Part shown: positions 36,154 to 63,673 of the stretch, piece by piece
How the letters are laid out: each line of letters starts with the position of its first letter
Position numbering within the stretch: position 1 is the stretch's first letter
The notes under the pieces: model-generated
The model's database searches: none
The model's input: only the letters and a program-made list of their open reading frames with translations
Told to the model about the DNA's origin: nothing
Made by a program: the position numbers and the translations under genes
From: Ginsengibacter hankyongi
GTDB lineage: Bacteria; Bacteroidota; Bacteroidia; Chitinophagales; Chitinophagaceae
NCBI RefSeq assembly: GCF_008710285.1
Contig: NZ_VYQF01000001.1
Coordinates: 62,001-126,000 of the forward strand
Length of the DNA stretch: 64,000 nucleotides
Direction of reading: 5' to 3'

Positions 36154-36276
36154 ACTCAGTATGCGTTTTTACATATAACTAAGTTAACAATAACATACGC
36201 TCCTATGTAAAGCGGTTCTAAGAGAGGCTGACATTTAATAAAGTTACTACATAATATGTTTTTAAAACGATGTGGA

Positions 36277-45705: not shown

Positions 45706-45745
45706 TATCTATCGAAAACGATTCCGCAATCCTTTTCGATAGATA
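45706..45745. promoter_or_regulatory. 40-base CpG-centred palindromic operator (susC side)
   Basis: Of the 20 base pairs of symmetry positions, 18 are self-complementary. The outer arms are CTATCGAAA (45709-45717) and TTTCGATAG (45734-45742), with a 16-base spacer. The centre, GATTCCGCAATC, is itself near-palindromic around CpG, as in typical LacI-family operators. The same design and spacing occurs at 62440-62479 in front of the LacI-type regulator. It is therefore probably that regulator's binding site controlling SusC/SusD. Confidence 0.8.
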
Positions 45746-46822: not shown

Positions 46823-47980
46823 CTATTTCCCCCCAACAGCAGGTATTTTCAGTGGAACCGCGACATTAATGGAATATTGCCTATGATTTATCCCCAATGC
46901 GCCAAACAATAAAACCGGCAATCCATTTTCGGTGTATAAGCAGGGCCGTTCCAGTTTGTCTTCTGAAAGAGTTCCATCATCCATCTGTACGTGATTGGGC
47001 ATTACTTTGGGATATTTTGTTGGCAGCCAATCAATCCCATTTGTCGAACTAAGCAAGGCCAACGCACCTGCCTCCCCTGTAAACTTTCCTACCACATCCC
47101 TTACGATGGCATAATTGCTTTTTTTGTAGCTCCATAAATAAGGGTCTTCTGCAACCATCCATTCTTTGCCTCCATCCTTCGCTTCAAAAACAGGTGACGG
47201 GTGTTTCACAAAAGGTCCCAATAACGATTTTGAAAAGGCTACACCAAATCTTACCCGGCCTCCTTTCATGGTGCCATTTTTCGCTACTTGTTTGTAGATC
47301 AGGATTACTTCCCCCTTTGAATCAACCGTGATAGCAGGATTGGATACCAACAATGCATCATAAGCAGTTGAATCTTTACTGACATCCAAGACGGGCTGAT
47401 CAAAGCGTTGCCAATCTCCTTCAGGATCATCCGTTACTGCTACGCCTATTCGCTGGTTGTTTCGGTATTCCCACCAGTTGGGGTTATCGTATGATGTGTT
47501 TGGTTGAACAAAAGATCTGCCTGTTGACCCCATGTAAAAAAGATAGTATTTCCCATTATACTGAATGACGGCTGGATTATGGGTACAAACGCCATCCCAA
47601 TATTGATTGCCACGTGCCGGAAAAACTACTTTTACATGGCGATAAGGACCTTCGGGTTTGTCTGATTTTGCCAGGGCTATTTCAGAATTTGTAATCCAGG
47701 CTTCATGGCCACACGCTTTTGGCCATCGGCTATACAACATATAAAACTTTCCGTTTTTGCCCTTTGTAACAGAACCGCACCAAATATTGTAGTTGGAGTC
47801 AACGAACTTATTTTTTTCAGGAAGCGGTTGCACCATGGAACTGATATCAACTTCATCCATTGAAACCAGGTTGCCTTTTTTGTCCAGTTTAGGATACTGA
47901 GCAAATGAGGGAATACAAAAACCAATCTGCAAAAACGTAAATACAATTTTCAGGGCATTTTTAAACTGTAAAGAAAACAT
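46823..47980 (-). CDS. Exported five-bladed beta-propeller glycosidase (GH43/GH117-like), paralog A
   Basis: A 385-residue exported protein with repeated blade motifs typical of the GH43/GH117-like propeller clan: GKFYMLYSRWP, THNPAVIQYNGKYYLFYMG, NNQRIGVAVTDDPEG, VSNPAITV and MVAEDPYLW. The N-terminus has a signal peptide ending near PSFAQ. It resembles the next gene throughout, so the two arose by duplication. The exact family and linkage specificity cannot be assigned by eye; an exo-acting uronidase, galactosidase or arabinosidase is possible. Confidence 0.82.
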   Translation of the reverse strand: MFSLQFKNALKIVFTFLQIGFCIPSFAQYPKLDKKGNLVSMDEVDISSMVQPLPEKNKFVDSNYNIWCGSVTKGKNGKFYMLYSRWPKACGHEAWITNSEIALAKSDKPEGPYRHVKVVFPARGNQYWDGVCTHNPAVIQYNGKYYLFYMGSTGRSFVQPNTSYDNPNWWEYRNNQRIGVAVTDDPEGDWQRFDQPVLDVSKDSTAYDALLVSNPAITVDSKGEVILIYKQVAKNGTMKGGRVRFGVAFSKSLLGPFVKHPSPVFEAKDGGKEWMVAEDPYLWSYKKSNYAIVRDVVGKFTGEAGALALLSSTNGIDWLPTKYPKVMPNHVQMDDGTLSEDKLERPCLYTENGLPVLLFGALGINHRQYSINVAVPLKIPAVGGK

Positions 47981-48234
47981 GTCTTAAAAGTTTATATTTA
48001 ATAAAAATTTGCTTCAGGTAATAGCTTCAAAAGCACTATTTTACAAATTCTGGCTGAAGAGACGTCCATATTGCATTCTTCCTGGGTCCATTGGCAGTCC
48101 GCAAAATTAATGTTCATCCATCTGTATCTTCTGTTGATCGAGTTTCAGGTTTCCAGAAGTCTAACATCGAAATATACGCATCGTTTTGCCTAAAAGGAAT
48201 GACGACGAATTTGCTCCGTATGCTTTCCACGCCT

Positions 48235-49335
48235 TTATTTTAAGGGTATCTGTACATTGTACGAATGTCCCTGCGTTTCATTTACGGCACAAAGCAAAGC
48301 CACCAGTTTGCCATTTTCGAAGAACAACTGCGGCCTTTCCAACGCTTCCAGTTTTTGGGTGCTTCCATCTGCCCATTTAATATTTAAGTCAGACACCAGA
48401 GGGTGTTTGGCCAGTTTCCAGTCCAATCCATCAAACGAATAAAAAAGCACCAGGCTTCGGCCTGCATTCGTAAAAGAGCCTTTCATATCTTTTACTATGG
48501 CATAATAGCAATTATCCTGATACCAAACAAAAGGGTCCTCTGCCGGAAAGTCAACATCTTCGACGGTAAAAACGGGTTTGTTTTGCTTTAGGAATGGCCC
48601 TTCCGGACGATCGGCAATAGCTGTGAGATGAACCACAGGGCCACCAAAAGGTTGTGGTTTTTTACGGGCAACTGCTTTATAAACCATCAGGAAGCGGCCA
48701 TCAGGCATTTGTGTCACCGAAGGATTGGCCACCATCTGTGCATCATGGGCAGTGGTGTCAGAAGAAATATCAATGATAGGTTTATCAAACCGTTTCCAAG
48801 GTCCGTTAGGGTCATCGGCAATGGCTACCCCGATGCGCTGATTGTTGCGATGTGTCCAGTTCAATTGCGGGCTGGTTATTTTCCCATCTCCAAAATTTCC
48901 CACATAGTAGAGGTAATATTTCCCGTTGAAGAAATGAACCGTCGGATTGTGTGTGTACATTCCATCCCAGTATTCAGCGCCACGATGTGGTAACGCGATA
49001 TCTTTAAACTTAAACGGGCCAAAAGGCGAATCGGAAACAGCATGAGCAACTTCTGAACTAGTGACCCAGGCCGACATTCCATACCTACGTGGCCATCGGG
49101 AATAAAAGAGATGGTATTTCTGGTCGATATGCGATTTGACAAGCGTACCGCCCCAGATATAAGAAGTATCGCTTATGAATTTCGCCGACATGGGTATGGG
49201 TTGAATCATACTACCAATATTTAAATCCTGAGCCTGGGTATTTACCACCGCAAACGACAAAACAATGCAACATAATGCTAGCGGATTTACATTAACTATG
49301 CGCTTCCTATTCATTTCTATTTTTTCATTTTTCAT
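48235..49335 (-). CDS. Exported five-bladed beta-propeller glycosidase (GH43/GH117-like), paralog B
   Basis: This protein is a paralog of the gene at 46823-47980, with corresponding blades KYHLFYSRWPRRYG, THNPTVHFFNGKYYLYYVG, NNQRIGVAIADDPNG, VANPSVTQ and PAEDPFVWY. I start it at the ATG at 49335 (366 residues); an ATG seven codons later (49314) would also yield a signal peptide ending AVVNTQAQ. The frame continues upstream to 49476, but that extension is unlike a signal region. Key segments differ between A and B, so they may act on different sugars. The 254 bases between them hold no clear gene. Confidence 0.82.
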   Translation of the reverse strand: MKNEKIEMNRKRIVNVNPLALCCIVLSFAVVNTQAQDLNIGSMIQPIPMSAKFISDTSYIWGGTLVKSHIDQKYHLFYSRWPRRYGMSAWVTSSEVAHAVSDSPFGPFKFKDIALPHRGAEYWDGMYTHNPTVHFFNGKYYLYYVGNFGDGKITSPQLNWTHRNNQRIGVAIADDPNGPWKRFDKPIIDISSDTTAHDAQMVANPSVTQMPDGRFLMVYKAVARKKPQPFGGPVVHLTAIADRPEGPFLKQNKPVFTVEDVDFPAEDPFVWYQDNCYYAIVKDMKGSFTNAGRSLVLFYSFDGLDWKLAKHPLVSDLNIKWADGSTQKLEALERPQLFFENGKLVALLCAVNETQGHSYNVQIPLK

Positions 49336-49659
49336 GCTAAATATTTTAAAATTTCTGTTATTTAAAGTGTGGCTTAAAACATTCTGGGGCTTTATTTTAA
49401 ACCTCTTATTAACGATCTGCTTCACTACTTGCTCTTCCCCTTCGAGCTGCCAAAATACTACTTCAAATCTAACCATCGACTAACTACGCTACATTCATCG
49501 ACTTTTCGAGTCTCAACATAGACTGCAGGGGATAGTGCCATAAGTCATCTTCGAAAAATACTTACACTATTTTAACTTCACTTTCATAATCCTCTGCAAA
49601 GCATAAGACAATGAAGTTTTTTAGAGATGCTCAATTCTGAAAGGAAATAATGCACGAGT

Positions 49660-51042
49660 TTAACTTTTTGACAGTTTTTGCATCCCACCAAATTTCAATA
49701 TCAACCATCCAACTGGATGCAGAAACGCCATTACAATAAACCACCATGAATACCCTTGACCCTGAACAGCATCTAACACTGGACTAAGAAGAGCATGCAA
49801 CCCTTTATCTAAAAATCCAGTTGCTTTTGAAGAAGTTCCGGAAACCATTGCCGCCACTATTGTGTTCATGAGAATCCCCCCAATTGTACTACCTGCTGCT
49901 ACAATACTAAATACGGTTCCGAGGGAATGCTTTGGTACTACATCTAATACCAACGAGCTGATATTAATTAACCAAGCCAGAGAAGCCATTACCGCACATA
50001 TAGTAATTGTCATTGCGAAATTCAAACCTGTTACCTGGCTGATTAATGGAGAAAGTGGCATTATACAAGCGCAGCCAAGCATGACCCATAACCTGCTTTT
50101 TACAGGCGCTACTCCTTTCTTCACAAGACGGCCCGACAGCCACCCTCCGAGCAAACTTCCAACACCCGCAGCTGCATAAATAACCCAGGTGATTTTCAAC
50201 TCCTCTTGTGAAAGATGCCTGTCACTGCTTAAATATTTGGGAAACCAAAACTGATAAAAATACCAAACCGGGTCAGTGACCAATCTTCCAATCAACAACA
50301 ACCATGTACCCCTGAATAAGAATACCTGCTTCCACGACCAGGTATTTTCTTTTGCTGAATCTGCCGGATCATCTGATGCAGCATCATCGTTGATGAGTTG
50401 AAGTTCAGCTTCAGTAATCAATTTAGATTTTTTCGGTTGCCGATATACCATTATCCATGGAATCAGCCACACCAATCCAGCCATACCGGTGAGTATGAAA
50501 GCCAGCCGCCAACCGGTCCCCTGTCCAAGCCAATTAGCAATAGCGGGCAAAGTGGAAGCATAATTGTAAGTGGCCAGCGGAATTACAATATAAGGCGCTA
50601 TTGTTGCTCCAATGGTTGCTCCCATTGTATAAAGCCCGATAGCAAAAGCCCTTTCCTTTTTTGGAAACCATTCAGACACGGCCTTAGATGCAGCCGGCCA
50701 AATACCTGCCTCCCCTAAACCTAACGCAAATCTGTAAACACTTAAAGAAGCGATACTACTTGCTGCAGCGGTAAGGGTATTTGCAATAGACCACCATGCT
50801 ACAAAAACAAACATGCCTTTTCTTGTTCCTATTTTATCAGAAATGCGTCCGGACAATAAATACGCTATGGTGTATGCAATAAGGAAGATGTTTACTACAT
50901 TGGCATAGTCCTGCTCATTCATATTCAAATCCTTTTGAATAGTAGGCGCTAATGACGACAAGGTTTGCCTATCAATATAATTCAGTACTGCGGCAAAGAA
51001 AAGCAGCACCACAATCCACCAACGCAAATTTTTTATTTTCAT
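49660..51042 (-). CDS. MFS transporter, ExuT-like hexuronate/sugar-acid:H+ symporter
   Basis: A 460-residue inner-membrane protein with about 12 hydrophobic helices. It starts WWIVVLLFFAAVLNYIDRQTLSSLAP, read in parts, and has the MFS loop motif GRISDKIGTRKG and the ACS-family block LGLGEAGIWPAASKAVSEWF. This branch carries galacturonate, glucuronate and related acids. Its presence in the locus suggests that the degraded polysaccharide yields a uronic or aldonic acid. A 183-base gap separates it from the propeller gene downstream. Confidence 0.9.
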   Translation of the reverse strand: MKIKNLRWWIVVLLFFAAVLNYIDRQTLSSLAPTIQKDLNMNEQDYANVVNIFLIAYTIAYLLSGRISDKIGTRKGMFVFVAWWSIANTLTAAASSIASLSVYRFALGLGEAGIWPAASKAVSEWFPKKERAFAIGLYTMGATIGATIAPYIVIPLATYNYASTLPAIANWLGQGTGWRLAFILTGMAGLVWLIPWIMVYRQPKKSKLITEAELQLINDDAASDDPADSAKENTWSWKQVFLFRGTWLLLIGRLVTDPVWYFYQFWFPKYLSSDRHLSQEELKITWVIYAAAGVGSLLGGWLSGRLVKKGVAPVKSRLWVMLGCACIMPLSPLISQVTGLNFAMTITICAVMASLAWLINISSLVLDVVPKHSLGTVFSIVAAGSTIGGILMNTIVAAMVSGTSSKATGFLDKGLHALLSPVLDAVQGQGYSWWFIVMAFLHPVGWLILKFGGMQKLSKS

Positions 51043-51533
51043 TTATTGTCTTTTAATCATTATTGAGCATACATTATTAAGTTAATCGTAAACTGTCATA
51101 GTGAATAGTCACTGGTGAGTGGGCAAAATATGAGAAGTCTGCAATCATCGACCGCTATTCACCATTCACGAGCCATAAACCGATGCGCCAATTCTCACTT
51201 TATGTAGCATTAGTTCCAAATCGGGCGTAATACCGACTTTTGAAAGGTTGCATCCCACCCGGTGTCGTTACAAAAAGGCTTTGAGGAGGTAGGTATATCG
51301 AAGAAATATGCTTTCAACCCAGCTTTCGAAGCAGATATATTCTGCGCCAGCAATATAAGTGAAAGCATAGCAAAACACATACACCTACGAATCTCAGTAT
51401 GGCAATTTTTATTAGAAAGAGTTTAATCATAATATCTTTTAATTTGCTTAAGCTAAAGCAGATCGCTAAAAAACCAACTAGCACATATTTGCTGATTGTA
51501 CGTAATACTATGCATTCAGCTTAACTTTAAAGT
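51043..51533. other. Gap with a short signal-peptide-like frame (51210-51380, minus)
   Basis: On the minus strand a 56-residue frame opens MCFAMLSLILLAQNISASKAG and ends RPIWN. The hydrophobic start resembles a secretion signal. The rest is unrecognised, so this may be the 5' stump of a lost exported enzyme. Nothing else is visible in the gap; a new promoter for the MFS and propeller genes could lie here. Confidence 0.35.
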
Positions 51534-54131
51534 TTACAACTTAACCTTATAACTTTCACTCCATTCACTTTGTATTTCGTATTGTTCAAACACGCACATC
51601 CTTACATAATAAGTTACCCCTTGCTCAAGATCGGGTATATAACAGGCGCCTTTATTTTTTATCTGCACGGTATGTGTATTCAATGAAAAATCCGGCTTGG
51701 TACTGTATTGCACTTCATAGCGATATTCGCCTTTTTCACTACTATAACCTATGCTGATTCCATTTTGAAATGCAGTCACGCCCTTAATTACAGGTGGCAA
51801 CTTACCATAGCTTTTAATGGCTTCATTGTGAATACTCGATTTGGCTTCACCAAAACTATTGATGGCTAAAAGTTGTATTTGGTAAACCTTGCCAATATTA
51901 TTTCCGCCTGATAATTTATCAGTTTCAATATAGTTATCAATGGTATTTACTGTTGAAATATTGAGTTCATTTTCGCCATACAACAATTTATATTCGGTTG
52001 CAAAATTTACGTGGTCAAAAACAACCCGTATTTTGTTTCCATCGTTAAAAACTGCTCTTATAACCGGTTTCTGTGGAACAACATAATAGATGGTGGTATC
52101 CATCAATGTATAGTTGGTAGGACTTACCAATGATATTTTTCTTGCAGCGATTTCCTGGTTAGTTGCTTCATGTTCAAATGATTTGGTAAAAGCAGCATCT
52201 CCGGGATTTACTGTTTCGATGATAATGGTGGATTTCTTTATTGACTGCCCCTCCTTTCCAATATCTTCACAAACCAATTTATATTCCCTTAAAGTGTAAG
52301 CGGGTAAATCCAATTTGTTTCGTGGCTGAAGATTCACTTCGGTATTATTGTTATTATTTTTTACAGTCAGCAACCTGAAGGGTGCGAATTCTTTTCTGAT
52401 AATTTCAAATGCCCTTTTTTTATTCCCGTAAACATCCACCAAGCCCCAATCCCTATTTTGATCTATTTTACTATCCCATGAAATATTGGAAGTACGGTAA
52501 TCACTTCTGTAATCATTGTATGTCCATAAGGAAGCCCCAAAGCAATACTCCCTGTCACGAAACTCGTTGAACATTTTTGGAAAATTTCCGGTGGAAGTAT
52601 TGATGTCTTCACCGATTAAATTACCTCCACATTCCGAAATAAAAATTAATTTACCCGGCTGGTTGTTATGCACTAATTCAACATTCTTCCCCCACCCGCC
52701 ATAGGTATTATAGGGAACAAAATCTCCAAATTGGGAAGGATCTTCCTTTTGATTATTTGCCGTATGGGAAACCAACACCACCAGTCGTGAATTGTCGAGA
52801 CTATCTTTCACAAACTGTATCGCCTTTTCTCCATATTCCATCACTTTTGTATTCCTTCTTTTGTCACCAATTTCGTTGCCTACACACCAGCCGATAATAG
52901 AAGGATGATTGAAGTGATTGCTGACCAATTGACGCATCCATTGCCTTGCAATTGGATTGGCAGGATCCGTTAGTTTGGTAGTACCCCAAAGCGGTATCTC
53001 AGCAATTACCAATATGCCTTTTTCATCCAGGTAATCATACACATCTTTGGGCAGGGGCATATGTGAAAGCCGCGTAATGTTTACACCGAGTGTTTTCATA
53101 TTATCAATGTCCCGTTTAAAAACCTCCGGTTGTAGCGTATTACCTGTAAGCCGGTCATCAGCTACCCAGTTAAGTCCCATCGCCCTTACGGATTCTCCGT
53201 TCAGTAAAAACTTGCCATCGGCAATTTCCACTTTACGGATACCAAAACGATCTTTTATTTCATGAATGATGGTATTTCCTTTTTTTATTTGAACTTTCAG
53301 GTTATACAAATTTGGAAAATCGAAGTGCCATAATTGAACATCTTTTGCGGCGAGCGAAAAATTAATTTCCGCGTTATTAAGATTACTATTCACTACTGAT
53401 ATTTTCTTCGAACCGCTTTTAATCAGCTTGCCTTTAAAACTAAGTTCATACATTAAATCAACCACTTCATTTACCTTGTTACCATTAAAGATAGCCGCAT
53501 TGAAAGTTATTGCAGCAGTGCCCTTTTTAAGATCCGGTGTAGCTGTTATTTTTACAGATTCAATGTGTATTGGATCATCCACCAGCAATGTTACCGGACG
53601 CCTGATGCCACCCCAACTCCAGTAAGCACCACTTCTAAAACTATTGTCGGCACATACCACCAAACAGTTTTTTGCCCCAGTCTTTAATTGTTCGCTGATG
53701 TCAAAATATGTGGAAAAGAATCCACCGGTAACATCGCCAATCAATTGATCATTCAACCAAACTTTGTAGTTGATGCCGACTGCTTCAAAATTCAACCGCA
53801 CGCTTTTTCCGGTTATACCAGCAGGCGAATTAAACACCGTTCTATACCATCCCTTACCTGTAAAATCGGCGTACTCATTTCGGATATCCCAATTACCCGG
53901 CACGGGCAACTGATCCCAACCGGCATCGTTATAGCTGCGGTTAAACCATTGCTGCGTTTCTCCCTTGTCGTAATAATCTGCTTTAAAATTCCACATTCCA
54001 TTGAGGGAAATTTTTTGTCCGGAAATTGATTCCATATTTAAACCTGGTGGAATTTGCTGCGCAAAAAGAAATGACAGACTCCCAATAAAATACGCAAGCA
54101 GAAAAACACTGATTGAAATTATTCGTTTCAT
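51534..54131 (-). CDS. GH2-family glycoside hydrolase with C-terminal FnIII-like domain
   Basis: An 865-residue exported enzyme with the GH2 order: signal peptide, sugar-binding jelly roll (SLNGMWNFKADYYDKG, DFTGKGWYRTVF, VRLNFEAVGINYKVWLNDQ), Ig-like domain, and TIM barrel with the acid/base Glu in GWCVGNEIGD and the nucleophile Glu in FISECGGNL. A C-terminal fibronectin-type-III-like module follows (about 775-865, ending SEWSESYKVKL). The overall pattern is nearest beta-glucuronidase/beta-galactosidase types. It is 65 bases after the esterase gene, in the same transcript. Confidence 0.92.
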   Translation of the reverse strand: MKRIISISVFLLAYFIGSLSFLFAQQIPPGLNMESISGQKISLNGMWNFKADYYDKGETQQWFNRSYNDAGWDQLPVPGNWDIRNEYADFTGKGWYRTVFNSPAGITGKSVRLNFEAVGINYKVWLNDQLIGDVTGGFFSTYFDISEQLKTGAKNCLVVCADNSFRSGAYWSWGGIRRPVTLLVDDPIHIESVKITATPDLKKGTAAITFNAAIFNGNKVNEVVDLMYELSFKGKLIKSGSKKISVVNSNLNNAEINFSLAAKDVQLWHFDFPNLYNLKVQIKKGNTIIHEIKDRFGIRKVEIADGKFLLNGESVRAMGLNWVADDRLTGNTLQPEVFKRDIDNMKTLGVNITRLSHMPLPKDVYDYLDEKGILVIAEIPLWGTTKLTDPANPIARQWMRQLVSNHFNHPSIIGWCVGNEIGDKRRNTKVMEYGEKAIQFVKDSLDNSRLVVLVSHTANNQKEDPSQFGDFVPYNTYGGWGKNVELVHNNQPGKLIFISECGGNLIGEDINTSTGNFPKMFNEFRDREYCFGASLWTYNDYRSDYRTSNISWDSKIDQNRDWGLVDVYGNKKRAFEIIRKEFAPFRLLTVKNNNNNTEVNLQPRNKLDLPAYTLREYKLVCEDIGKEGQSIKKSTIIIETVNPGDAAFTKSFEHEATNQEIAARKISLVSPTNYTLMDTTIYYVVPQKPVIRAVFNDGNKIRVVFDHVNFATEYKLLYGENELNISTVNTIDNYIETDKLSGGNNIGKVYQIQLLAINSFGEAKSSIHNEAIKSYGKLPPVIKGVTAFQNGISIGYSSEKGEYRYEVQYSTKPDFSLNTHTVQIKNKGACYIPDLEQGVTYYVRMCVFEQYEIQSEWSESYKVKL

Positions 54132-54196
54132 GATATTGTAAAAATTAATTTTTATACCGTTTTTAAATTTGTCAAAGAGGAATGATGCACCAATAA

Positions 54197-55012
54197 TTAT
54201 TTAGCTAAACATTTGTAAACATATTTCGCCACCTTTTCTCCAATATCATTTAATCCATCCTGGTTGTAATGCACATTGTCTTTCATCCAATTTCGTTCAA
54301 AGAACAGGTTGGTGTCTTCATACGCTACATATACCCGTTTCATTTTTTTGGCAACGGCCGCCTGTATCTCCCTAACGATATCATTGCCTGCTTTGGGCCT
54401 GCCTGACTGGTATCCTGTTTGAACAATAAAGAAAGGAAGTCTTTTACCATACCTGTTCTTGAAACGTTTGATCAAACTTTCTAAGGATGCTTTAAATGCT
54501 TCGCCTGTTTCTTTGCCATCGTTGATGGCATTGGCATCCCGCTCGCCCTGCATCCAGATGATACCCGTTAATAGAATGCCTGATTTATTGATTGCCTTGT
54601 TTGTTTTTTCAACGGCATCAGTAAACAATTTCCCACTGGTATCCCATGTGCCGTAATTGTCCAGTTCTGCATTTTTGCTACAGGAACTTCCACCCCTTGC
54701 TGCCATTAACACAACTACTTTTTCCTGAGTTAATCCATTCAACGCTTTTGCAAAAGAAGGAAGCATGGTTCCTCCTTTGTTAGTCGTTTCCAGGCTTTTC
54801 CACTTTTGTCCGGCAGGATCTTTTAATAATTTTATTGAATCCAACAACACATCGTATTCATAGGCATTTATACATACATTCAGGTTACTCTTTCTGCTAT
54901 CGCCGTGCCCAACTGCATTGCTTTGTCCGGCCAATAGAAACGACTGCTGTGCATGCACATGATTACTTATCAATAAGAAAATAAACAATAGGTTTTTAAA
55001 TGCAAGTTTCAT
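54197..55012 (-). CDS. SGNH/SASA-domain carbohydrate acetylesterase (CE6-like)
   Basis: A 271-residue exported esterase. The nucleophile block FLLAGQSNAVGHG follows the signal peptide directly. Also seen are the oxyanion Gly/Asn region (MAARGGSSC), IIWMQGERDAN and the C-terminal Asp/His block KDNVHYNQDGLNDIGE. This fits CE6-type or sialate-O-acetylesterase-like enzymes that deacetylate xylan, pectin or similar glycans. The ATG at 55012 begins the signal peptide (MKLAFKNLLFIFLL); the frame opens earlier, but that extension is not signal-like. Confidence 0.87.
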   Translation of the reverse strand: MKLAFKNLLFIFLLISNHVHAQQSFLLAGQSNAVGHGDSRKSNLNVCINAYEYDVLLDSIKLLKDPAGQKWKSLETTNKGGTMLPSFAKALNGLTQEKVVVLMAARGGSSCSKNAELDNYGTWDTSGKLFTDAVEKTNKAINKSGILLTGIIWMQGERDANAINDGKETGEAFKASLESLIKRFKNRYGKRLPFFIVQTGYQSGRPKAGNDIVREIQAAVAKKMKRVYVAYEDTNLFFERNWMKDNVHYNQDGLNDIGEKVAKYVYKCLAK

Positions 55013-55131
55013 GATCGGTATTAGTATTGATCCATCTTTATTGAAATAGCAACATTGTAATTTTCGTCTTTCCCATATACTGCACAAAACAACATCTTAG
55101 GTACACCGTTCTCAATCCATCACTGCGACCT

Positions 55132-55428
55132 TTAGAGCAATGAATTTTTATTTTCCGCTAAATGATACTCTCCTCCCCGAATTAAAATAAAAATATCTCT
55201 ATATACCCCGTTTTTAAAACTCTTTACTGCTGCTTTTGCTTTTTTAATACTTGCAAAAGGTCCATCCGTTCTATCAGCATTTGGCTCGGATAATTTCCCG
55301 GACCACCGATCATTCCCAATGGTTGAAACAAAAAAATCTGCATAGGGCTTATTTGTATTTTGAGCAACACAAACTGAGGCTATTACAAATGAAAAAAATG
55401 AAATAATGATCGATTTAAAAATGGTCAT
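55132..55428 (-). pseudogene. Truncated N-terminus of an exported right-handed beta-helix enzyme
   Basis: A signal peptide (MTIFKSIIISFFSF) is followed by ADFFVSTIGNDRWSGKL, DGPFASIKKAKAAVKSFK and RDIFILIRGGEYHLAE. This is the standard first rungs of right-handed parallel beta-helix proteins (pectate-lyase or glycosidase-like, normally 500-900 residues). The frame then stops after KNSLL at 55132. No further beta-helix sequence exists before the esterase gene, so at least four fifths of the protein has been deleted. Confidence 0.8.
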
Positions 55429-55576
55429 TTTCCTGATTTTCACTCTATACATGCAAGTAATTATTTTTGAATCCATATCCTATAACATTTTTGAATGTTA
55501 TAAAAAATATTAATTAAGTTTATATTTTAAGAAACTGTTAGATTTTTCATTTGGCTCTATCCACCCATTGATAGTA

Positions 55577-57523
55577 TTATTTTTTCACCTCCAATACTGC
55601 CTGTTTTTTAAACCCCGAGTATCCGTAGGAAGCAGTTACCTTATGAAATTGCCCTGGCGTGTAGGCTGCACTGAAAGTACCGGTATCAGGTCCTGTCTCT
55701 TTTAATTGGTATTTAATTGTTGGCGCATCTTCCTCTTTTAGTTCAACCCAAGCTTCATCTACTTTATCAGGATGAAGATTTAATGGCGCCTTTAGGCGAA
55801 TAAATACCTTTTTAAGCTTACCTACATGTGTTATTTTTTTGCCTGCGGCATTAACGAAATAAATGGCAGTACTGTGTAAAGATGAAAAAGTCAATGTTGC
55901 CATCCAGCCTCTATTGGAGATAGCCCATCCTTCAGTGGCGTAAGCGTTTTTTCCAATTTTATCCGTGGCCGTATCTGCCATTTTACCATCTACCTTTTGA
56001 TTCATTCTTGGAAAATCTTTATCCAGCGGTGTGCCATCTAACGTGCCTCTTACAAGGCCCAATTGACCATATCCATTTGGATGCGAATCAGGCCATCCGT
56101 ATTCTACGCCTTCCCAATATCCATTGAGCGCTACTCTTTCTTTACTTTTATTACTTAAGTGAGCTCCCAGAGGATTCAGGCCAAATACAAAATTCACCTG
56201 GCTCCATGCCAGTTCCCTTAATTGTGGTTGATTAAGTAAATAGGCTGCAGCAAATAAACTCCCCCCCAATGCAGGAGCGCCACCCAGTTCTTTGGTCTTT
56301 GGGTGAGCCCTTTCCGTATCATTGTGTACCCTGTATTGCCAGGGATTGGTGGTTTTAGCACTAATATGATTGGCCCAGGCTGTCAACTTTTCTTTCGTAC
56401 CTTTTGGTGCCTTATCGGGTACCGTTAGTAGAAAAAAAGCCAGCGCTTGTGGTGTAATATGTTCGGCATTTCTAATCCACCACATATGCCTGGGATTGTT
56501 AAAATCCCAGTTTTTAATAATATCTTCAGCACTTAGCTGTGCCCATTTTAAAAACTGTTCCGGCTTGCCATCAGCTTCGTTTTTTTCGCAGAGGTACATG
56601 AATAGATTGCTGAATACCGATTGCCCGAACGCATTGCCCATCTCATTGAATTCCTGGTACCCCGAGTCAACCCATTTGGTACTATAAGTCCAATACCTTA
56701 CTACCTTATGCCGGTCGTAAGCGGTCCATTTTTCGAGGCATACCTTTCTGTATGCCTGGTATTTTTCTGCTGACAAGTATGGCTTTAAAAAACTATGGTA
56801 AGCAGCACAGACTGCTGCAAGCTGATCGAGTGTATTCCAATAATCATAATTCATTTTGGCGCTATCCTTATATCCCAACCAGCCATGCCTTTCTGCAACG
56901 GGCCCGTTATAATTTATATGATTGTACGCAAATTCGGCATGCCATAAAATCAGTGCCACCAGGTCCGGCATCTTCCCTTCGCCCATTTCATTTTTCCAGT
57001 TATCAAACAACGCAGGGTTACTGGCATAAAACATGGTTTCAAAAACAGTTTCCAATCCGTAAGCGCCACAGTCTCTTGAAGGTCCTCCACCGTACACCTT
57101 TGCTTCATTTGAATGAACCGGATCTGTTGAACCTCGAACATCCACAAAAAAATCATAGGCTAATTTGGAGGAGATTAATTCGAGGTAAAAGGGGGCAATT
57201 TTAAAGGGAACCGACGACTGCAAACCATTCACCTTGATTATATATTCAGATACATGATCAACCGGATTGAACAAAGAAAAATCCCCGCTGTAATTTTTAA
57301 TGATTCCTTTAAAGACCGTTTTACCAGTGGTAGCAGATACGATTTCAAAGCCGGTTTTATCAGCAATACCCCAGGCAACAAAACGTTTGGATTCACCTGA
57401 ATTATACCCTGCCTGGTTTACCAACACTCTTTTGAGGGCTGATTGCTGGGCAGAAATACTTTGGTTGGCGGCAAAAAGGAGTATAAAAATAACAATGCGG
57501 GTGATAAATTTATTTTTCAACAT
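55577..57523 (-). CDS. GH9-related exported protein with N-terminal Ig domain
   Basis: A 648-residue exported protein. After the signal peptide comes a CelD_N-type Ig domain (VNQAGYNSGESKRFVAW, EYIIKVNGLQSSVPFKI), then an (alpha/alpha)6-type region with SSKLAYDFFVDVRG, AYHSFLKPYLSAEKYQAY, VFGLNPLGAHLSNKS and GWMATLTFSSLHS, and a beta tail. The order matches GH9. However, the DAGDY motif that carries the catalytic base in cellulases is not present at the expected place (VYGGGPSRDCGAYG stands there). It may be a distinct enzyme class. Its start overlaps the GH95 stop by 14 bases, suggesting translational coupling. Confidence 0.75.
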   Translation of the reverse strand: MLKNKFITRIVIFILLFAANQSISAQQSALKRVLVNQAGYNSGESKRFVAWGIADKTGFEIVSATTGKTVFKGIIKNYSGDFSLFNPVDHVSEYIIKVNGLQSSVPFKIAPFYLELISSKLAYDFFVDVRGSTDPVHSNEAKVYGGGPSRDCGAYGLETVFETMFYASNPALFDNWKNEMGEGKMPDLVALILWHAEFAYNHINYNGPVAERHGWLGYKDSAKMNYDYWNTLDQLAAVCAAYHSFLKPYLSAEKYQAYRKVCLEKWTAYDRHKVVRYWTYSTKWVDSGYQEFNEMGNAFGQSVFSNLFMYLCEKNEADGKPEQFLKWAQLSAEDIIKNWDFNNPRHMWWIRNAEHITPQALAFFLLTVPDKAPKGTKEKLTAWANHISAKTTNPWQYRVHNDTERAHPKTKELGGAPALGGSLFAAAYLLNQPQLRELAWSQVNFVFGLNPLGAHLSNKSKERVALNGYWEGVEYGWPDSHPNGYGQLGLVRGTLDGTPLDKDFPRMNQKVDGKMADTATDKIGKNAYATEGWAISNRGWMATLTFSSLHSTAIYFVNAAGKKITHVGKLKKVFIRLKAPLNLHPDKVDEAWVELKEEDAPTIKYQLKETGPDTGTFSAAYTPGQFHKVTASYGYSGFKKQAVLEVKK

Positions 57524-59750
57524 ACGACTTATTGATTTTATTTAATTCCTGATTCAAAACATATTCTTTTCCTGCAACCAGGTAGATTTCTTTTACCAGT
57601 TGCCCATACCTGATTTTAGCAGTAGCATTTTCTGCTGCTTTGAAAATTACATTTTCCAGATTTCCTTTTTTCCAGGTGATATCCACCCGAACATTTCCGC
57701 GTGCTATCAGTCCTTTTACTGAGCCCTCCTGCCAGGCATCCGGCAAGGCAGGTAACAGGTGGATTTCACCCAAATGGCTTTGCAGCAGCATCTCCACTAC
57801 CGCTGCCGTGTAGCCGAAGTTGCCATCTATCTGAAAGGGCGTATGCGCATCAAACAAATTAGGGTACAAGCCGCCATCAAACGAAAAACCTGAGCGCTCT
57901 ACCGGCACTGGTTTTAACAACGTTCTCAATAATTGATATGCTTTGTTACCCTCCAATAAACGGGCATAAATATTCATCTTCCAGGCAGTGCTCCACCCGG
58001 TACTGACATTGCCTCTTGAGTCCAAAGATTTCTTTGCTGCCCTCGCCCAATCGGGCGTATAAATGGGACTGATTTGTTTGCCGGGATACACGGCAAACAG
58101 GTGTGAATTGTGCCGGTGATGGTCGGTAGAATCATCTACGTCATCCATCCATTCCTGCAATTGCCCCCACCGGCCAACCTGGGGACCCAACAAGCGTTTT
58201 TGCATGGAGGTTATTTTAGCACAGTAAGCCTGGTCTATTCCTAGTTTTGTTGCAGCCGCGATGTAATTACCAAACAGGTCGTATACAATTTGCTGATCAT
58301 AGGATGCACCGGGGTAAGGTGATTTATCGCCTTCGTTTTTTCCTGGACCATGTTCCGGTGACCAGCCATATGGTGTAATTAATTTGTGATTTGGCCCTTC
58401 AACGAGGTGATCTTCCCAATATTCCGTAATCTCTTTTAATAGGGGATAGGCCCTTTTACGCAGGAAGGCAGTGTCATTTGTAAACGCAACATGTTCCCAG
58501 AGATGCTGACTCAACCAGGCGCTGCCGGGACGATGGATCCGCCAGGCTGAAGGCCCTCCCATGATATTATTGGTGTTGTAAATGATCCAACCTTTTTTTG
58601 TCTTCAGTGCGGAATCTGTTGATTTTTTTTGAATATATCCGATGTGTTCAATCCAATCGAAAAGAGGTAAATGGCATTCAGATAAACCTGTTGGTTCAGC
58701 CAGCCAATAATTCATTTCCACATTAATATTGGTGGTGTATTGTGCATACCAGGCCGGTTTAAATTCATCATTCCAGATTCCCTGGAGATTGGCGGGCAGT
58801 CCACCAGGCCTCGAAGAACTGATGAGCAGGTATCTTCCATATTGAAATAATAATGCTTCAAAATCAGGATCGATGGCGCCTTTGTTGTAGGCTGTAAATC
58901 GTTCTGTGATATCCAGGTTATTTTGTTTCCCCAACTTTAATTCCACCTTGTTAAACAGGCGACTAAAATCAGTGACGTGGCTGGCAAATAATTGAGCATA
59001 TGTTTTTGTAACAGCGCCCAACAGTTGTTGTTCGAGCTTATTGTGCGGTGCTTCGCCTTTGAATTGAACCAATGGATCATTCACAAATGAAGTTCCTGCA
59101 ACAAGGTATAATTCGATCTCGTTTGCATTTTTAACCTCAATACCCGTGCTGTCTTCAGTCATGCGGCCGCCTTTTAGTTTCACCAGCAGTTGGGCTTCAT
59201 ATTCCATGTTATTTTCTAGAAGTTTCCCTTTAAAAATTAATTTGGAACCATTTACAATAGTTTTTGACTGGTGCGCATCATTAAGCATGATCTTGCAGGA
59301 AATTTTTGCATTGCCCTGGGAAGTATATTTCATAACCATTACCCGATCTGGGTTACTAATAAAATAAGTTCGGTAAAATTTGTTCTTCCCTGCGCTATAA
59401 CTTATTTTATGAACCCCCTCATTTAATAGCAATTCTCTATGATAACCAACGACCTCCCCATGATTAAAATTAATCAGCACATTACCGAAAGGCTGATAAT
59501 AACCCACCTTATTTGTTGTGCCGGTAATAAGTGATGATTCATTAAACTGGATGCGTTCATGGTTGGCGCCGCCAAAAACCATCGCACCTAAAAAGCCATT
59601 CCCCAGCGGTAAAGCTTCCAGCCAGTTATTTGCCGGAATATTAAATTTCATGGCCACCGGGATGGGCTTGGTTACCTGGCCCTGCAAACCTGCATTTAAT
59701 AATAAAAATATTACCCCTAAAAAAAGCAATCGATGAGCCGGTTTATTCAT
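57510..59750 (-). CDS. GH95 alpha-L-fucosidase / alpha-L-galactosidase
   Basis: A 746-residue exported enzyme with the GH95 plan: N-terminal beta domain (NNWLEALPLGNGFLGAMVFGG in parts, RIQFNESSLITGT), then the (alpha/alpha)6 barrel with TTNINVEMNYWLAEP, the acid-bearing YGWSPEHGPG, HHRHNSHLFAVYPG and FQIDGNFGYTAAVVEMLLQSH in parts. The two Asn and the Asp/Glu that form the family's unusual catalytic set appear intact. It would remove terminal alpha-L-fucose or alpha-L-galactose from side chains. It lies between the FAD protein and the GH9-related gene in one transcript. Confidence 0.93.
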   Translation of the reverse strand: MNKPAHRLLFLGVIFLLLNAGLQGQVTKPIPVAMKFNIPANNWLEALPLGNGFLGAMVFGGANHERIQFNESSLITGTTNKVGYYQPFGNVLINFNHGEVVGYHRELLLNEGVHKISYSAGKNKFYRTYFISNPDRVMVMKYTSQGNAKISCKIMLNDAHQSKTIVNGSKLIFKGKLLENNMEYEAQLLVKLKGGRMTEDSTGIEVKNANEIELYLVAGTSFVNDPLVQFKGEAPHNKLEQQLLGAVTKTYAQLFASHVTDFSRLFNKVELKLGKQNNLDITERFTAYNKGAIDPDFEALLFQYGRYLLISSSRPGGLPANLQGIWNDEFKPAWYAQYTTNINVEMNYWLAEPTGLSECHLPLFDWIEHIGYIQKKSTDSALKTKKGWIIYNTNNIMGGPSAWRIHRPGSAWLSQHLWEHVAFTNDTAFLRKRAYPLLKEITEYWEDHLVEGPNHKLITPYGWSPEHGPGKNEGDKSPYPGASYDQQIVYDLFGNYIAAATKLGIDQAYCAKITSMQKRLLGPQVGRWGQLQEWMDDVDDSTDHHRHNSHLFAVYPGKQISPIYTPDWARAAKKSLDSRGNVSTGWSTAWKMNIYARLLEGNKAYQLLRTLLKPVPVERSGFSFDGGLYPNLFDAHTPFQIDGNFGYTAAVVEMLLQSHLGEIHLLPALPDAWQEGSVKGLIARGNVRVDITWKKGNLENVIFKAAENATAKIRYGQLVKEIYLVAGKEYVLNQELNKINKSYVEK

Positions 59751-59835
59751 TTGGTTTGTACTTTTTTTGTTATCAATATACCAGCTGGCAATAAAACACC
59801 ATCACTATAAAATCCAAACGTTCCATGATTGCATG

Positions 59836-62118
59836 TTAGTTTTCGTAACACCTGATCGCAAAAATGGCTACTGGTGTATCTTTTGAAGGGTGATCACATT
59901 TCAATTGGAGCATGTCTGTAACCAGTGCCTCATCAAATAGGATGGTATTAAGCGATTGATAATTGTCTTCTTTTTTATACACTACGTTGCCCGACTGGTC
60001 GATGATTGAATAGTTTCTTACGCAAAAAGGCATTACCCGTTCGGGGTGGCCCAGCAATACCGATTCCATTGGATGGTCAAAATCTGTGTCGAAACAAATC
60101 TCAATGCATTTAATACGCTTCGGTCCACTCCAATTTAGTGTAACCGAGGGGGAAGGATCATTGTAATCTGCCACCCAAGCGTTCGGATGAGTCGTTGGCC
60201 TGCCAATACCATTGCGAATATTTTCAACTGAAAAAGGATAAAGGCCGTCTTCAATCTTAATGGCTAAATTTTGCCCCTCAGGCCTTCTTTTTGGGCACCA
60301 GAATTCAAATGCCTCTACTCCAATATCGTCGGTTGGAGATTGCTTTCCGTAATTGGATACTGCAACATTGATATGGTTAAAAACAGATAAAATTCCTGTA
60401 ACCCTTTGTTCTGAAAAATGCAACGAAACCTGCGGGTTTTTGAGAAAGCAAATAAAAGCATACCCCTTTTCAGGCATTAACTGGTTAAAATTGAGTTGGA
60501 TACAATTACGCCCTGGCGACATTTCAAATGACAATGTTTCCAAAATTGTTTCGGGAGTATAATTGTTAATGTTTCGGCTGATCCTTAGTTGCACTTCCAG
60601 CTTTGTCTCAATTTCCGCTTCCGTTTGAACAATCAATGTTGGAACTTTACCGGGTAACAAAGGAATTAGCTGACCAAAAGAAACTTCTAAAGTTTTAAAC
60701 AAATTATCATCCCTCAGTTCATTTAAATGCAGTTCACTACTGGCAGTAAGTGTAGCGGCTGCGACAAGGTCGAACGAATCATTATGTATAATACCCGGTA
60801 TAAAATGACCTGCTCTTAACAATGCCTGTTGTAGATTATTGATGTTTTCTTTTACCAAAAGCGTTGCGGGAATTAGACTTTTTGATTTGCACAACCAGGC
60901 AGCAGTACCTACCGCTTGACCAATACAACCGCAGGTTGCCATTACCCTTGTAGATGCGAAAGCAACGTGCGTTGAACTGATGATACGGCCTGCAAGAAAA
61001 AGATTTTTGACATTTCGACTGTATAAGGATCGCAATGGAATTTGATAAATACCTTTACTATGCCATTGATTACATCCGGGCTTTTCACTAAACACCCCAT
61101 CCGCTGGATGAAGATCGATGCTCCATCCACCAAAGGCCACCGCATCAGCATGTACCCTTTGTTCAACAATATCTTGCTGGCGAATTATATAGTCACCTTC
61201 GAACCGCCTGCTTTCCCTTTTACCCGGGATGGTACCTACCCATTCAAGTGTTAAGTTTTCAGCATCCGGAAATTCCCCCGAATTTTTTATATGATTCCAA
61301 ACTCCATACACCACTTTCCAAAGTTCCCATTTTATTTTTTCGGTGTCATGCACTGTATCCAGTCTGCCACCATACTCGATCCACCAGAGCCTGCATCCAA
61401 ATTCATTTGTATTAAATCCTCTGTAACGTGGTATTGCTGTAATATCCTTTAATGCATATGAAGGCGGAATATATTTCACCTTTTTACCCGTATCCTTTGT
61501 ATAAAAATATAAGGAATGTCCCAGCAATTCACCATACTCTTTTGATGGAGCAAATTTTTCTCCAAATTCTTCCGTAGATTCGGCTCCCATTCTAAAAGCT
61601 GCGCCGGATAAAAAGCCAACTATCCCATCTCCCGATGCGTCTACAAATAGGGGCGCACTTAATGTATATTTAATCTGATTCTGACTGCAGAAACCTTCTA
61701 CTGCGTAAATCCTGTCTTCTTCCTTTTTGAGCACATGATAGACTGACGTGTTTAGTAACAATGTAATATTATTTTCTTGAATCACTTTATCGAGGATAAT
61801 GGTATCAAATATCACAGCGTTACCCTCCGGATTACGGTACATGTTTTCTACCAATAATTCATCAATAATTCCGCCCTCCCGTGACCATCGGTTGTTATTA
61901 CCCATGTGAGAGGTTGCTCCCAGTACCCACAACCTTACCTCACTGGACGCATTCCCTCCTAAAACCGGTCTGTCGTTAACAAGCACAACTTTGAGCCCCA
62001 ATCTTGCGGCCGCAATTGACGCACAAACCCCCGCAATACCGCCGCCTACAACAACCAAGTCGGATTCAATTTCCTTTTTTTTCAGATCCCTAAACAATTT
62101 TTCCGCATTAGTTATCAT
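59836..62118 (-). CDS. FAD-dependent oxidoreductase (FAD_oxidored family), PUL-associated
   Basis: A 760-residue protein with an N-terminal dinucleotide fold (LVVVGGGIAGVCASIAAARLG), the family motif VLGGNASSEVRLWVLGA, FVDASGDGIVGFLSGA and GRIISSTHVAFASTRVMATCG in parts. It has no signal peptide, so it is cytoplasmic, unlike its hydrolase neighbours. The C-terminal 250 residues are beta-rich and unassigned. Members are frequent in PULs and are sometimes mislabelled as xanthan lyases; oxidation of an imported sugar or glycoside is likely. It is the first gene of the leftward enzyme transcript and divergent from the LacI-type regulator. Confidence 0.87.
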   Translation of the reverse strand: MITNAEKLFRDLKKKEIESDLVVVGGGIAGVCASIAAARLGLKVVLVNDRPVLGGNASSEVRLWVLGATSHMGNNNRWSREGGIIDELLVENMYRNPEGNAVIFDTIILDKVIQENNITLLLNTSVYHVLKKEEDRIYAVEGFCSQNQIKYTLSAPLFVDASGDGIVGFLSGAAFRMGAESTEEFGEKFAPSKEYGELLGHSLYFYTKDTGKKVKYIPPSYALKDITAIPRYRGFNTNEFGCRLWWIEYGGRLDTVHDTEKIKWELWKVVYGVWNHIKNSGEFPDAENLTLEWVGTIPGKRESRRFEGDYIIRQQDIVEQRVHADAVAFGGWSIDLHPADGVFSEKPGCNQWHSKGIYQIPLRSLYSRNVKNLFLAGRIISSTHVAFASTRVMATCGCIGQAVGTAAWLCKSKSLIPATLLVKENINNLQQALLRAGHFIPGIIHNDSFDLVAAATLTASSELHLNELRDDNLFKTLEVSFGQLIPLLPGKVPTLIVQTEAEIETKLEVQLRISRNINNYTPETILETLSFEMSPGRNCIQLNFNQLMPEKGYAFICFLKNPQVSLHFSEQRVTGILSVFNHINVAVSNYGKQSPTDDIGVEAFEFWCPKRRPEGQNLAIKIEDGLYPFSVENIRNGIGRPTTHPNAWVADYNDPSPSVTLNWSGPKRIKCIEICFDTDFDHPMESVLLGHPERVMPFCVRNYSIIDQSGNVVYKKEDNYQSLNTILFDEALVTDMLQLKCDHPSKDTPVAIFAIRCYEN

Positions 62119-62439: not shown

Positions 62440-62479
62440 TACCTATCGAAATCATTTGCGAAATCGTTTTCGATAGATA
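62440..62479. promoter_or_regulatory. 40-base CpG-centred palindromic operator (regulator side)
   Basis: Arms CTATCGAAA (62443-62451) and TTTCGATAG (62468-62476) are separated by 16 bases, exactly as at 45706-45745. The centre ATTTGCGAAAT again has CpG at the dyad. Fifteen of 20 symmetry positions are complementary, and the right arm with its flank (TTTTCGATAGATA) is identical to the other copy. It ends 15 bases before the regulator's ATG, so autorepression is likely. It may also act on the divergent enzyme transcript. Confidence 0.8.
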
Positions 62480-62494
62480 CATAAATTAAATAGT

Positions 62495-63673
62495 ATGCCA
62501 AGAGTTGTCTGCCCCAGGTGTGAAAAAGCTGAAACCGTTCAGAAGTCGGGTATCGTTCGCAAAAAGCAACGTTTCTATTGTAAGGATTGTAATTATCATT
62601 TCACAATATATCATGAAAGCATAAAATCAAGAAAAAAACAAAAGCCTAATTCAGGAGGTCAAACATCCTTATTGGATATTGCGAAAGCGGTGGGGGTATC
62701 TGTTTCAACCGTATCAAGGGCACTGAATAACCATCCTGATATCAGCGAAAAAACAAAAGTAGCAATAAAGAGCATTGCTAAAGAATTGGCATATGAACCG
62801 AACGCGCTTGCACAAAGTCTAGTTACAAGATCAACGCATACATTGGGTGTCATCATTCCAAATTTACATACTACCTTTTTTGCCACGATGCTAAGCGGTA
62901 TTCAGCACGTTTCATCACAGGCAGGATACCGGGTAGTGATTTGCCAGTCAGATGACTTACATCAAACTGAAGTCGCCAATGTTCAGGCATTGATGAACAA
63001 TATGATTGACGGATTATTATTCTGCCATTCGTTGGAAACTTCAACTTTTGATCATATAAAAATACAGTTGAGGCGAGGTATTCCAATTGTTCAATTTTAC
63101 AGGGTATCACTGGAAGTAGAAACGCCCTGCGTTTTCTGCGAGGATGAAAACGGGGCTATCCAGGTAACGGAACACCTGATTGAAATGGGCTGTAGGCGTA
63201 TTGGAATATTATTGGGGCCACCACATTTAATGATTTCTAAAAAACGATTAGAGGGGTACTACAAGGCCTTAAATAAATTCAAAATTCCCTTAGATCCAAA
63301 ACTTGTAGCCAATGTTGATTTCAGCACCAAATCGGTACACTCTTCCGTAGATAATTGGTTGCATTTAGATGTTCCCGTTGATGCTGTTTTTTCCATTTCT
63401 GACAAAAGTGCCGTACAAACCATACAGTACTTAAAAAAACTCCACATCAAGGTTCCAGATACTGTTTGTGTAGCAGGATTTGGTAATGAGTATACTGGCG
63501 AAATCATTGAACCTCAGTTAACAACTTTTGATGTGCGTACGGGATTAATAGGTGAAAAAACCGCAAAGCTTTTATTGAACAGGATCATTGATCAAAATAG
63601 CACTTCAGAAAATGTTACAGTAAAAGGACACCTGATCGTAAGAGATTCTTCAAAGAGAGTGCAGCATTTATAG
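62495..63673 (+). CDS. LacI-family regulator with N-terminal IS1/InsA-like zinc ribbon
   Basis: A 392-residue regulator with an unusual three-part architecture. Residues 1-40 form a zinc ribbon with CPRC (6-9) and CKDC (29-32), plus the KSGIVRKKQRFYCKDCNYHFT pattern of the IS1 InsA N-terminus (read in parts). A basic linker follows (KSRKKQKPNSGG). Residues 58-105 are a classical LacI helix-turn-helix (LLDIAKAVGVSVSTVSRALN), the hinge ends near LVTRSTHTLGVIIPN, and the rest is a periplasmic-binding-like sugar sensor domain (MIDGLLFC, GCRRIGILLGPP, VCVAGFGNE). It is about 50 residues longer than usual because of the ribbon. It probably controls the large PUL through the palindromes at 62440 and 45706. 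Confidence 0.92.
   Translation: MPRVVCPRCEKAETVQKSGIVRKKQRFYCKDCNYHFTIYHESIKSRKKQKPNSGGQTSLLDIAKAVGVSVSTVSRALNNHPDISEKTKVAIKSIAKELAYEPNALAQSLVTRSTHTLGVIIPNLHTTFFATMLSGIQHVSSQAGYRVVICQSDDLHQTEVANVQALMNNMIDGLLFCHSLETSTFDHIKIQLRRGIPIVQFYRVSLEVETPCVFCEDENGAIQVTEHLIEMGCRRIGILLGPPHLMISKKRLEGYYKALNKFKIPLDPKLVANVDFSTKSVHSSVDNWLHLDVPVDAVFSISDKSAVQTIQYLKKLHIKVPDTVCVAGFGNEYTGEIIEPQLTTFDVRTGLIGEKTAKLLLNRIIDQNSTSENVTVKGHLIVRDSSKRVQHL

Follow-up and report, generated by a model that had tools for sequence, protein, structure and literature searches.

The window, the whole 64 000 nt stretch of Ginsengibacter hankyongi DNA that was analysed, contains a block of eight minus-strand genes headed by a FAD-dependent oxidoreductase gene, a divergently oriented gene for a LacI-type regulator with an N-terminal zinc ribbon, and a susC/susD pair, these being the next genes on the minus strand after the eight-gene block (Table 1). 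Two 40-base palindromes, sites A and B, lie upstream of these genes. The start of site B is 321 bp from the start of the FAD-dependent oxidoreductase gene and its end is 15 bp from the regulator ATG, while site A is 135 bp from the susC start. As site B lies at one end of the eight-gene block and site A at the other, there is one copy per block end, and from this position the sites would be expected to control both flanking promoters. A promoter search found exact TAnnTTTG sequences at 62404 (upstream of the regulator) and 45884 (near susC), with no convincing −33 box. An adjoining stretch at 27776–37952 contains GH106 and GH78 alpha-L-rhamnosidase genes, a GDSL esterase gene and an AraC-type regulator gene (37068–37952); these neighbours of the cluster suggest a rhamnose-containing glycan. 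A second susC/susD pair is present on the minus strand at 312–5268, where no copy of the motif occurs.

Table 1. Coordinates of the genes, protein domains and operator elements in the window
Feature	Position	Strand	Remark
susD	40797..42497	-	
susC (TonB-dependent receptor)	42523..45570	-	Site A upstream
Site A, 40-bp palindrome	45706..45745	.	32-bp core 45710–45741, upstream of susC
Rest of minus-strand block: GH95, CelD_N protein, SASA esterase, GH2, MFS transporter, two GH43 proteins	46823..59750	-	
FAD-dependent oxidoreductase	59836..62118	-	Heads the eight minus-strand genes that run away from site B (46823–62118)
Site B, 40-bp palindrome	62440..62479	.	32-bp conserved core 62444–62475, between the divergent FAD-oxidoreductase and regulator genes
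Site B left ribbon-associated TAT (−16 to −14)	62444..62446	.	
Site B left LacI-type unit CGAAATCATTTGCG	62447..62460	.	Centre between 62453 and 62454; partly degenerate
Site B right LacI-type unit CGAAATCGTTTTCG	62459..62472	.	Centre between 62465 and 62466, 12 bp from left centre
Site B right ribbon-associated ATA (+14 to +16)	62473..62475	.	
Ribbon-LacI regulator, 392 aa	62495..63673	+	
N-terminal IS1/IS1595-type zinc ribbon, aa 1–39 (Cys 6, 9, 29, 32)	62495..62611	+	NF050000
LacI HTH and hinge, aa 58–109	62666..62821	+	Pfam PF00356, aa 59–103

The original prediction described sites A and B as sharing identical arms around a 16-base spacer, with symmetry about a central CpG, and this description was accurate. 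Exact matches to CTATCGAAA-N16-TTTCGATAG were found at 45709–45742 and 62443–62476, with no further place in the window at up to three mismatches. Recounting gave the same symmetry as predicted, 18 of 20 pairs for site A (mismatched at −2 and −7) and 15 of 20 for site B (mismatched at −2, −5, −6, −8 and −18), and a CpG is present at the centre of both. The number of matches expected by chance in the window was 0.03, and a count of two was not attained in any of 100 shuffles. Across the full 5.5-Mb genome (5 505 520 bases, 33 contigs) sites A and B were the only perfect places, with three additional places at three mismatches each. A chance origin of the two arm-sharing sites was rejected on the basis of the window shuffles and the whole-genome search.

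The regulator is a member of the LacI/GalR family, combining a LacI HTH (PF00356, 60.1 bits) with a periplasmic-binding-protein-like sensor (Peripla_BP_1, PF00532, 98.7 bits). The recognition residues are V70 and S71, TVSR occupies positions 72–75, and the hinge contains Ala106 and Leu109. The N-terminal ribbon has a CxxC...CxxC arrangement and scored 28.6 bits against NCBIfam NF050000, over the curated cut-off of 28, assigning it to the IS1/IS1595 ribbons; the score for Pfam Zn_ribbon_InsA was 17.3 bits, under its cut-off of 26.1. NF050000 matched 19 of 19 ribbon-LacI proteins in one alignment (E≤0.001), and Cys 6, 9, 29 and 32 were invariant in alignments of 14 and 19 sequences. Transposase zinc ribbons bind DNA, and family membership suggests that the regulator ribbon binds both zinc and DNA. 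Hinge residues A106 and L109, which we equated with AA-51 and AA-54 in the numbering of PMC2978694, were invariant in 19 sequences; in that study a hinge Ala/Leu goes with CpG insertion at the operator centre, and the hinge is thus of the type expected for a central CG. Mean pLDDT per block of an AlphaFold2 model was 72–82 in the ribbon (aa 1–40) and below 50 in the linker (aa 40–54), with low confidence for the hinge (105–111) and a confident LacI body. Top Foldseek matches of the model among solved structures included CcpA, CelR, RbsR and PurR. None of the 41 distinct matches of residues 1–110 to sequences of solved structures aligned before residue 45, so that none of them covers the ribbon.

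Ribbon-LacI proteins were identified, with the first 110 residues as query, in 14 of 394 genomes of the window's family, its own genome included. Among the matches listed, they were also present in named Chitinophaga, Dyadobacter, Chryseolinea, Filimonas, Niabella, Runella and Paraflavitalea and in several MAGs, and a phylum sample contributed four more loci (L131–L134). No match to this query starting before residue 32 was found in the 19 other genomes of the window's genus. Identical alignment rows were given by G274 and Paraflavitalea, and likewise by G202 and Filimonas; both genera belong to Chitinophagaceae, which is thus probably the family of the window. Footprinting upstream of the orthologous regulators confirmed that the element is conserved, with a 32-bp core in one register at 31 of 35 Bacteroidota ribbon-regulator loci (29 of 33 once two duplicate genomes are excluded). 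A clear site near the regulator was absent at four loci (L046, L050, L065 and L131), and the regulator of L038/L204, which starts at a contig end without any upstream sequence, was dropped. Distances upstream of the regulator included 359 bp (L040) and 884 bp (L041). The consensus of the ribbon sites was TATCGGGAACGnTTnC to the left and GnAAnCGTTCCCGATA to the right of the centre. Sites scored 25.5–47.1 bits with a matrix built from most of the same sites, with centres picked by hand from a palindrome scan; column-shuffled matrices gave at most 12.4 bits. Among the outermost four bases on each side, conservation was moderate at −19 (A in 40 of 54 half-sites) and −17 (C in 37 of 54) and weak at −18 and −20; the part kept across orthologues is 32 bp.

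In 15 of 18 named loci (L049–L066) the regulator has a susC-like match immediately to its left on the other strand; at loci outside this set the flanks covered were in most cases too short to show this. Most named relatives have one site near a divergent susC and regulator, while the window has a divided cluster with a separate copy for each part. Genome G105 resembles the window, with susC set apart and supplied with its own site, and in Niabella a site was located upstream of susC and no site close to the regulator. FAD-oxidoreductase-like genes were also detected near several ribbon regulators. The motif search also brought up operators (L194:8560–8591 and L195:7981–8012) located just upstream of two more ribbon-LacI genes of VAPSTVSR type (8712–9854 and 6706–7860, minus strand, respectively).

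The distribution of the element across genomes was assessed with a 32-bp pattern. With up to three mismatches there were one or two matches in each of 28 ribbon-regulator genomes, compared with matches in 2 of 28 for the reversed pattern; those away from known ribbon regulators were in G095 and G794 and, as second matches, in G789, G791, G562 and G778. Within the 394 family genomes, 27 had a match, comprising 13 of the 14 ribbon-regulator genomes and 14 of 380 others. Among the 14, the G095 match is located elsewhere than the regulator and the G348 regulator is at a contig end. All ten places with two or fewer mismatches were within eight ribbon genomes, and every place in a genome without a ribbon regulator had three mismatches, as did four of the ribbon sites. 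Three-mismatch places in G026, G144, G293 and G335 stand upstream of non-ribbon LacI genes, and the reversed control matched 13 genomes (hand count). Since the pattern was derived from ribbon sites, its rarity elsewhere is the informative part. The confinement of the closest matches to ribbon-regulator genomes indicates that the element goes with the regulator family, as originally predicted.

The core reads as two units of the form CGNAANC/GNTTNCG (slash, unit centre) spaced 12 bp from centre to centre, with the central CpG common to both; in the ribbon consensus a CpG recurs every 6 bp and the units are centred at ±6.5. This form is that of LacI operators, in which A is found where the centre of the element has T at −4 and −3. 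The inner 12 bases had been predicted to resemble an ordinary LacI operator, a claim that was not upheld, as T occurred at −4 in 52 of 54 and at −3 in 43 of 54 half-sites and the usual order was found instead in the ±6.5 units. Inner half-sites were about as informative as outer half-sites in the 27 non-redundant ribbon sites. A double-unit score, which is independent of the hand-picked matrix and blind to the ends, was ≥23 at 25 of 35 ribbon loci (site B, 23) and in none of 105 shuffles, and at 28 of 66 non-ribbon loci and in none of 198 shuffles. By this score and the 27 non-redundant sites, the element belongs with overlapping pairs, two unit operators approximately 12–13 bp apart. Scoring pairs of single units favoured 12 bp at only 13 of 35 ribbon loci, owing to the degeneracy of the inner halves; at site B the left unit is poor and the pair falls below the unit cut-off of that scan.

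Among the 66 loci of non-ribbon relatives, where the paired units are of the GGGAAC/GTTCCC type, the best unit-pair distance was 12 bp in 20, 19 bp in 14 and any other distance in one or two each, with no pair in 15; two of the twenty 12-bp loci (L207 and L220) are doubtful, with the pair ~300 bp upstream. The group typified by SISTVSRAM has the same paired architecture without a ribbon (CCGGTAAC, GTTACCGGCAAC and GCTGCCGG in succession). As non-ribbon LacI regulators own the same 12-bp pair, the ribbon is not the cause of the enlargement, and the proposal of one ordinary operator with extra arms read by the ribbon fails on this point. In G041 a core fitting the ribbon consensus at every specified position occurs twice near a non-ribbon LacI gene. 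These near-perfect pairs without TA ends (L287:6354–6385 and 15577–15608, separated by 9.2 kb), of which one closely follows the 3′ end of the LacI gene and the other is upstream of a susC-like gene, form a good no-ribbon control. At L289 a paired site without TA ends also precedes a non-ribbon LacI gene by ~40 bp, and the G041 and L289 sites are presumably bound by those non-ribbon LacI proteins.

For other Bacteroidota LacI proteins among the loci listed, a strong 12-bp pair was found in 6 of 24 usable regions (from 33 loci), with other distances in none or one. In Bacillota and others among the loci listed (24 usable of 28), the counts were three at 12 bp, three at 24 bp and two at 31 bp, giving no single distance peak. 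Strong 12-bp pairs occurred in 1 of 480 and 0 of 480 shuffles, respectively. The Bacillota pairs at L069, L083 and L084 (Paenibacillus, Chengkuizengella) consist of GGTAAC/GTTACC-type units 12 bp apart upstream of LacI genes. A second fixed arrangement, GGGAAC/GTTCCC-type units 18–20 bp apart, was observed at 23 non-ribbon LacI loci (L206–L208, L210, L212, L214–L225, L227, L228, L230 and L234–L236), with a spacing of 19 bp in 20 of the 23, which is a non-integer number of helix turns. Half-site spacing did not vary as in CytR-like operators, the 32-bp register being constant in all ribbon sites found; the scans presupposed this register, and other spacings are possible at the four loci without a site.

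In the work of Camas et al. (PMC2978694), the half-site bases NT-5 and NT-4 are linked to residues 15 and 16, which immediately precede TVSR. The equivalent positions are −11/−10 (outer) and −2/−3 (inner) if the units are read as a pair, and −5/−4 if the centre is read as one operator. Mutual information with the residue pair was calculated for 56 of 60 sites overall and 31 of 34 ribbon sites, exact repeats having been removed. For the 56 sites, z was 9.8 at −10, 9.6 at −2, 7.8 at −3, 6.0 at −5, 5.4 at −11 and 1.4 at −4. Flanking positions −14, −17 and −18 were at 5.3–5.6, equal to the −11 level, which shows that common descent inflates the scores; the scores ignore descent, so their ranking counts more than their size. 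For the 31 ribbon sites z was 7.1 at −10, 6.3 at −11, 4.1 at −14, 3.8 at −2, 3.6 at −1, 2.4 at −5, 1.8 at −4 and 0.3 at −3. Residue classes followed the outer half-sites, with KS going with GG in 34 of 46, VS with AA in 7 of 8 and NS with GT in 8 of 8 (four Dyadobacter), while IS and PS were mixed. KS-class inner half-sites (−3, −2) had GG in only 6 of 46, for which looser reading, the sole explanation offered, may account; together with the low −3 score in ribbon sites, this indicates that the centre is perhaps read loosely or by something else.

Because −10 and −11 vary with the HTH recognition residues, also when ribbon proteins alone are considered, the HTH most likely reads the arms. The predicted placement of the HTH at the centre is at odds with this result, as the specificity residues vary with −10 and −11 and hardly with −4, the NT-4 equivalent in a central register. 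The reverse arrangement, which had been offered as the other option, gains support for an HTH on the arms, with no sign of ribbons reading the centre. The centre as a LacI site was disfavoured by both the non-ribbon controls and the covariation test.

The ends of the core were compared between 27 of the 34 ribbon sites (seven near-copies left out) and 26 non-ribbon sites, namely those of the 28 with a double score ≥23 that lie no more than 190 bp from where the match begins (this omits L207 and L220; five of the 26 were shifted six bases to their best register). The proportions of ribbon and non-ribbon half-sites were 52 of 54 vs 19 of 52 for A at −15, 52 of 54 vs 35 of 52 for T at −16, 41 of 54 vs 6 of 52 for T at −14, and 50 of 54 vs 12 of 52 for TA at −16,−15. 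TA was present at both ends of 23 of 27 ribbon and 2 of 26 non-ribbon sites. When near-copies and 18–20-bp pairs were included, these figures were 28 of 32 and 2 of 49, with TA at one end in 4 of 32 and 14 of 49; three of the 32 ribbon sites (Niabella and the second regulators of Runella and G586) had been found with a pattern already holding TA ends. The non-ribbon regulators with TA at both ends were L245 and L254, while L232, from a sister group of the window's clade and below the count cut-off, had TA at one end. On trees constructed without the ribbon, the ribbon label required two changes in 97 rows and three in 92 (two duplicate and ten long-branch rows removed, seven added), with at least two changes forced by supported branches. 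Averaged across 200 pairings, TA ends and the ribbon coincided in 1.7 of 2 contrasts, and three pairings contained one contrary contrast; with only two to three independent contrasts, a sign test is unable to reach significance. Of the predicted link between the ribbon and the outer bases, the part that remains plausible concerns the outermost TA(T/C) at ±14 to 16, which is what is left for the ribbon.

These sequence comparisons indicate that the 40-base element is a real conserved operator and that the original division into a LacI-bound centre and ribbon-bound arms is mostly wrong. The operator probably consists of two abutting LacI-type sites, with HTHs on the arms and centre and ribbons on the TA ends, and would block promoters when occupied. 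The ribbon-LacI encoded beside site B would bind the element as a double operator. Its HTHs would read the inner portion of each arm and, with less stringency, the half-sites at the centre, while leucines of the hinge would be inserted at both unit CpGs. The ribbon, held on a flexible linker N-terminal of the HTH, would most likely touch the TA(T/C) beyond the outer half-sites and steady the ends. Bound repressor would be predicted to block its own promoter and those of susCD (site A) and the eight-gene FAD-oxidoreductase block (site B), a putative operon. A sugar released from the glycan may free the repressor, as suggested by its membership of the LacI family and the neighbouring glycosidases. 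By B-DNA arithmetic, 12 bp is 1.14 turns and would separate two dimers by 41 Angstrom along the helix axis, with a rotation of ~50 degrees between them. Contact between dimers ~13 bp apart has been judged impossible and their DNA contacts to overlap, and partial unwinding has been proposed (PMC4052901). The element may be occupied by two dimers together, by dimers in turn or by one dimer across the outer halves, and we give simultaneous binding of two dimers a roughly even chance.

A different explanation, which we consider unlikely, is that the operator is paired but the ribbon stays off the DNA, serving in oligomerisation, zinc or redox sensing or partner binding, and that TA ends are a lineage habit of the HTHs or promoters. 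TA does occur in non-ribbon sites, at one end more often than at both, T at −16 is common without a ribbon and the independent contrasts are few, all of which fit this explanation. The excess of A at −15 with a ribbon does not, nor does the presence of TA ends in both ribbon groups of the tree when adjoining non-ribbon groups mostly lack TA at both ends; the ribbon also matches transposase ribbons, which are known DNA binders. The stronger covariation of HTH residues with outer than with inner bases in ribbon proteins would suit a single dimer with HTHs on the outer half-sites and a long spacer, the centre being spacer or read by the ribbon, and CytR is cited for such relaxed half-site spacing (PMC5263246, PMC12051234). 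This is improbable, however, given that conservation is about equal in inner and outer half-sites, that the same centre is present without any ribbon, that other relatives hold whole separate units at 18–20 bp and that the hinge Ala/Leu is intact. The main version of the original prediction, one LacI dimer at the centre with ribbons reading the whole arms, accounts for a palindrome centred on CpG and uses a plausible DNA-binding domain, but we regard it as very improbable, since the arms are present without a ribbon and arm bases follow the HTH residues while central −4 does not.

Ordinary LacI/GalR operators are even palindromes, mostly of 16–22 nt with a central CG, and autoregulation is common (PMC4052901). 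The units described here share the CG centre and, in the paired reading, the G at NT-6 that goes with TVSR proteins (PMC2978694); the 32-bp conserved core and two unit centres are unlike such operators. In their survey, which included Bacteroides as one taxonomic group, Ravcheev et al. (2014, PMC4052901) reported overlapping LacI-family sites ~13 bp apart upstream of 110 operons, conserved in some orthologous groups, and named GntR at gntKU as a demonstrated case. In the available sections of that paper such sites are described as hard to reconcile with known LacI–DNA structures and are left unexplained. The present operators resemble those pairs in having two overlapping LacI-type sites at a preferred distance of ~12–13 bp, where our 12 bp is centre to centre and the ~13 bp may be counted otherwise, and differ from them, as described there, in the ribbon-fused LacI group, the palindromic symmetry of the whole and the TA(T/C) ends. 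CytR and CcpA cre-var are likewise LacI-family proteins on sites possibly longer than 20 bp (PMC3454398, PMC5263246), but the spacing of those sites varies and one register fits all ribbon sites found here. The ribbon is of the type found in IS1/IS1595 transposases (NF050000), fused here to a LacI repressor instead of a transposase. The NrdR zinc ribbon binds DNA. NrdR is also a repressor with a zinc ribbon and needs the right spacing of its two boxes (PMC12051234), but unlike ribbon-LacI it has no LacI HTH or sugar-sensor body. Overlapping LacI sites are thus already known, while the literature searched, mostly outside subscription journals, contained no report of the ribbon fusion or its TA ends.

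The ribbon-LacI group is a widely conserved case of overlapping sites, with a single register and natural controls in the form of near-identical cores without a ribbon or TA ends, which makes the overlapping-site question directly testable. If the ribbon reads the TA ends, a transposase-type ribbon would extend the specificity of a repressor; each of the 28 ribbon-regulator genomes, several megabases in size, has one or two copies of the extended site. It is possible, if rather doubtful, that the transposase-type ribbon was acquired at least twice or repeatedly lost, and that it extends the outer half-sites by TA(T/C) and clamps two dimers on the double operator. If true, this would explain for a first time, in structural terms, the use of overlapping sites by LacI dimers.
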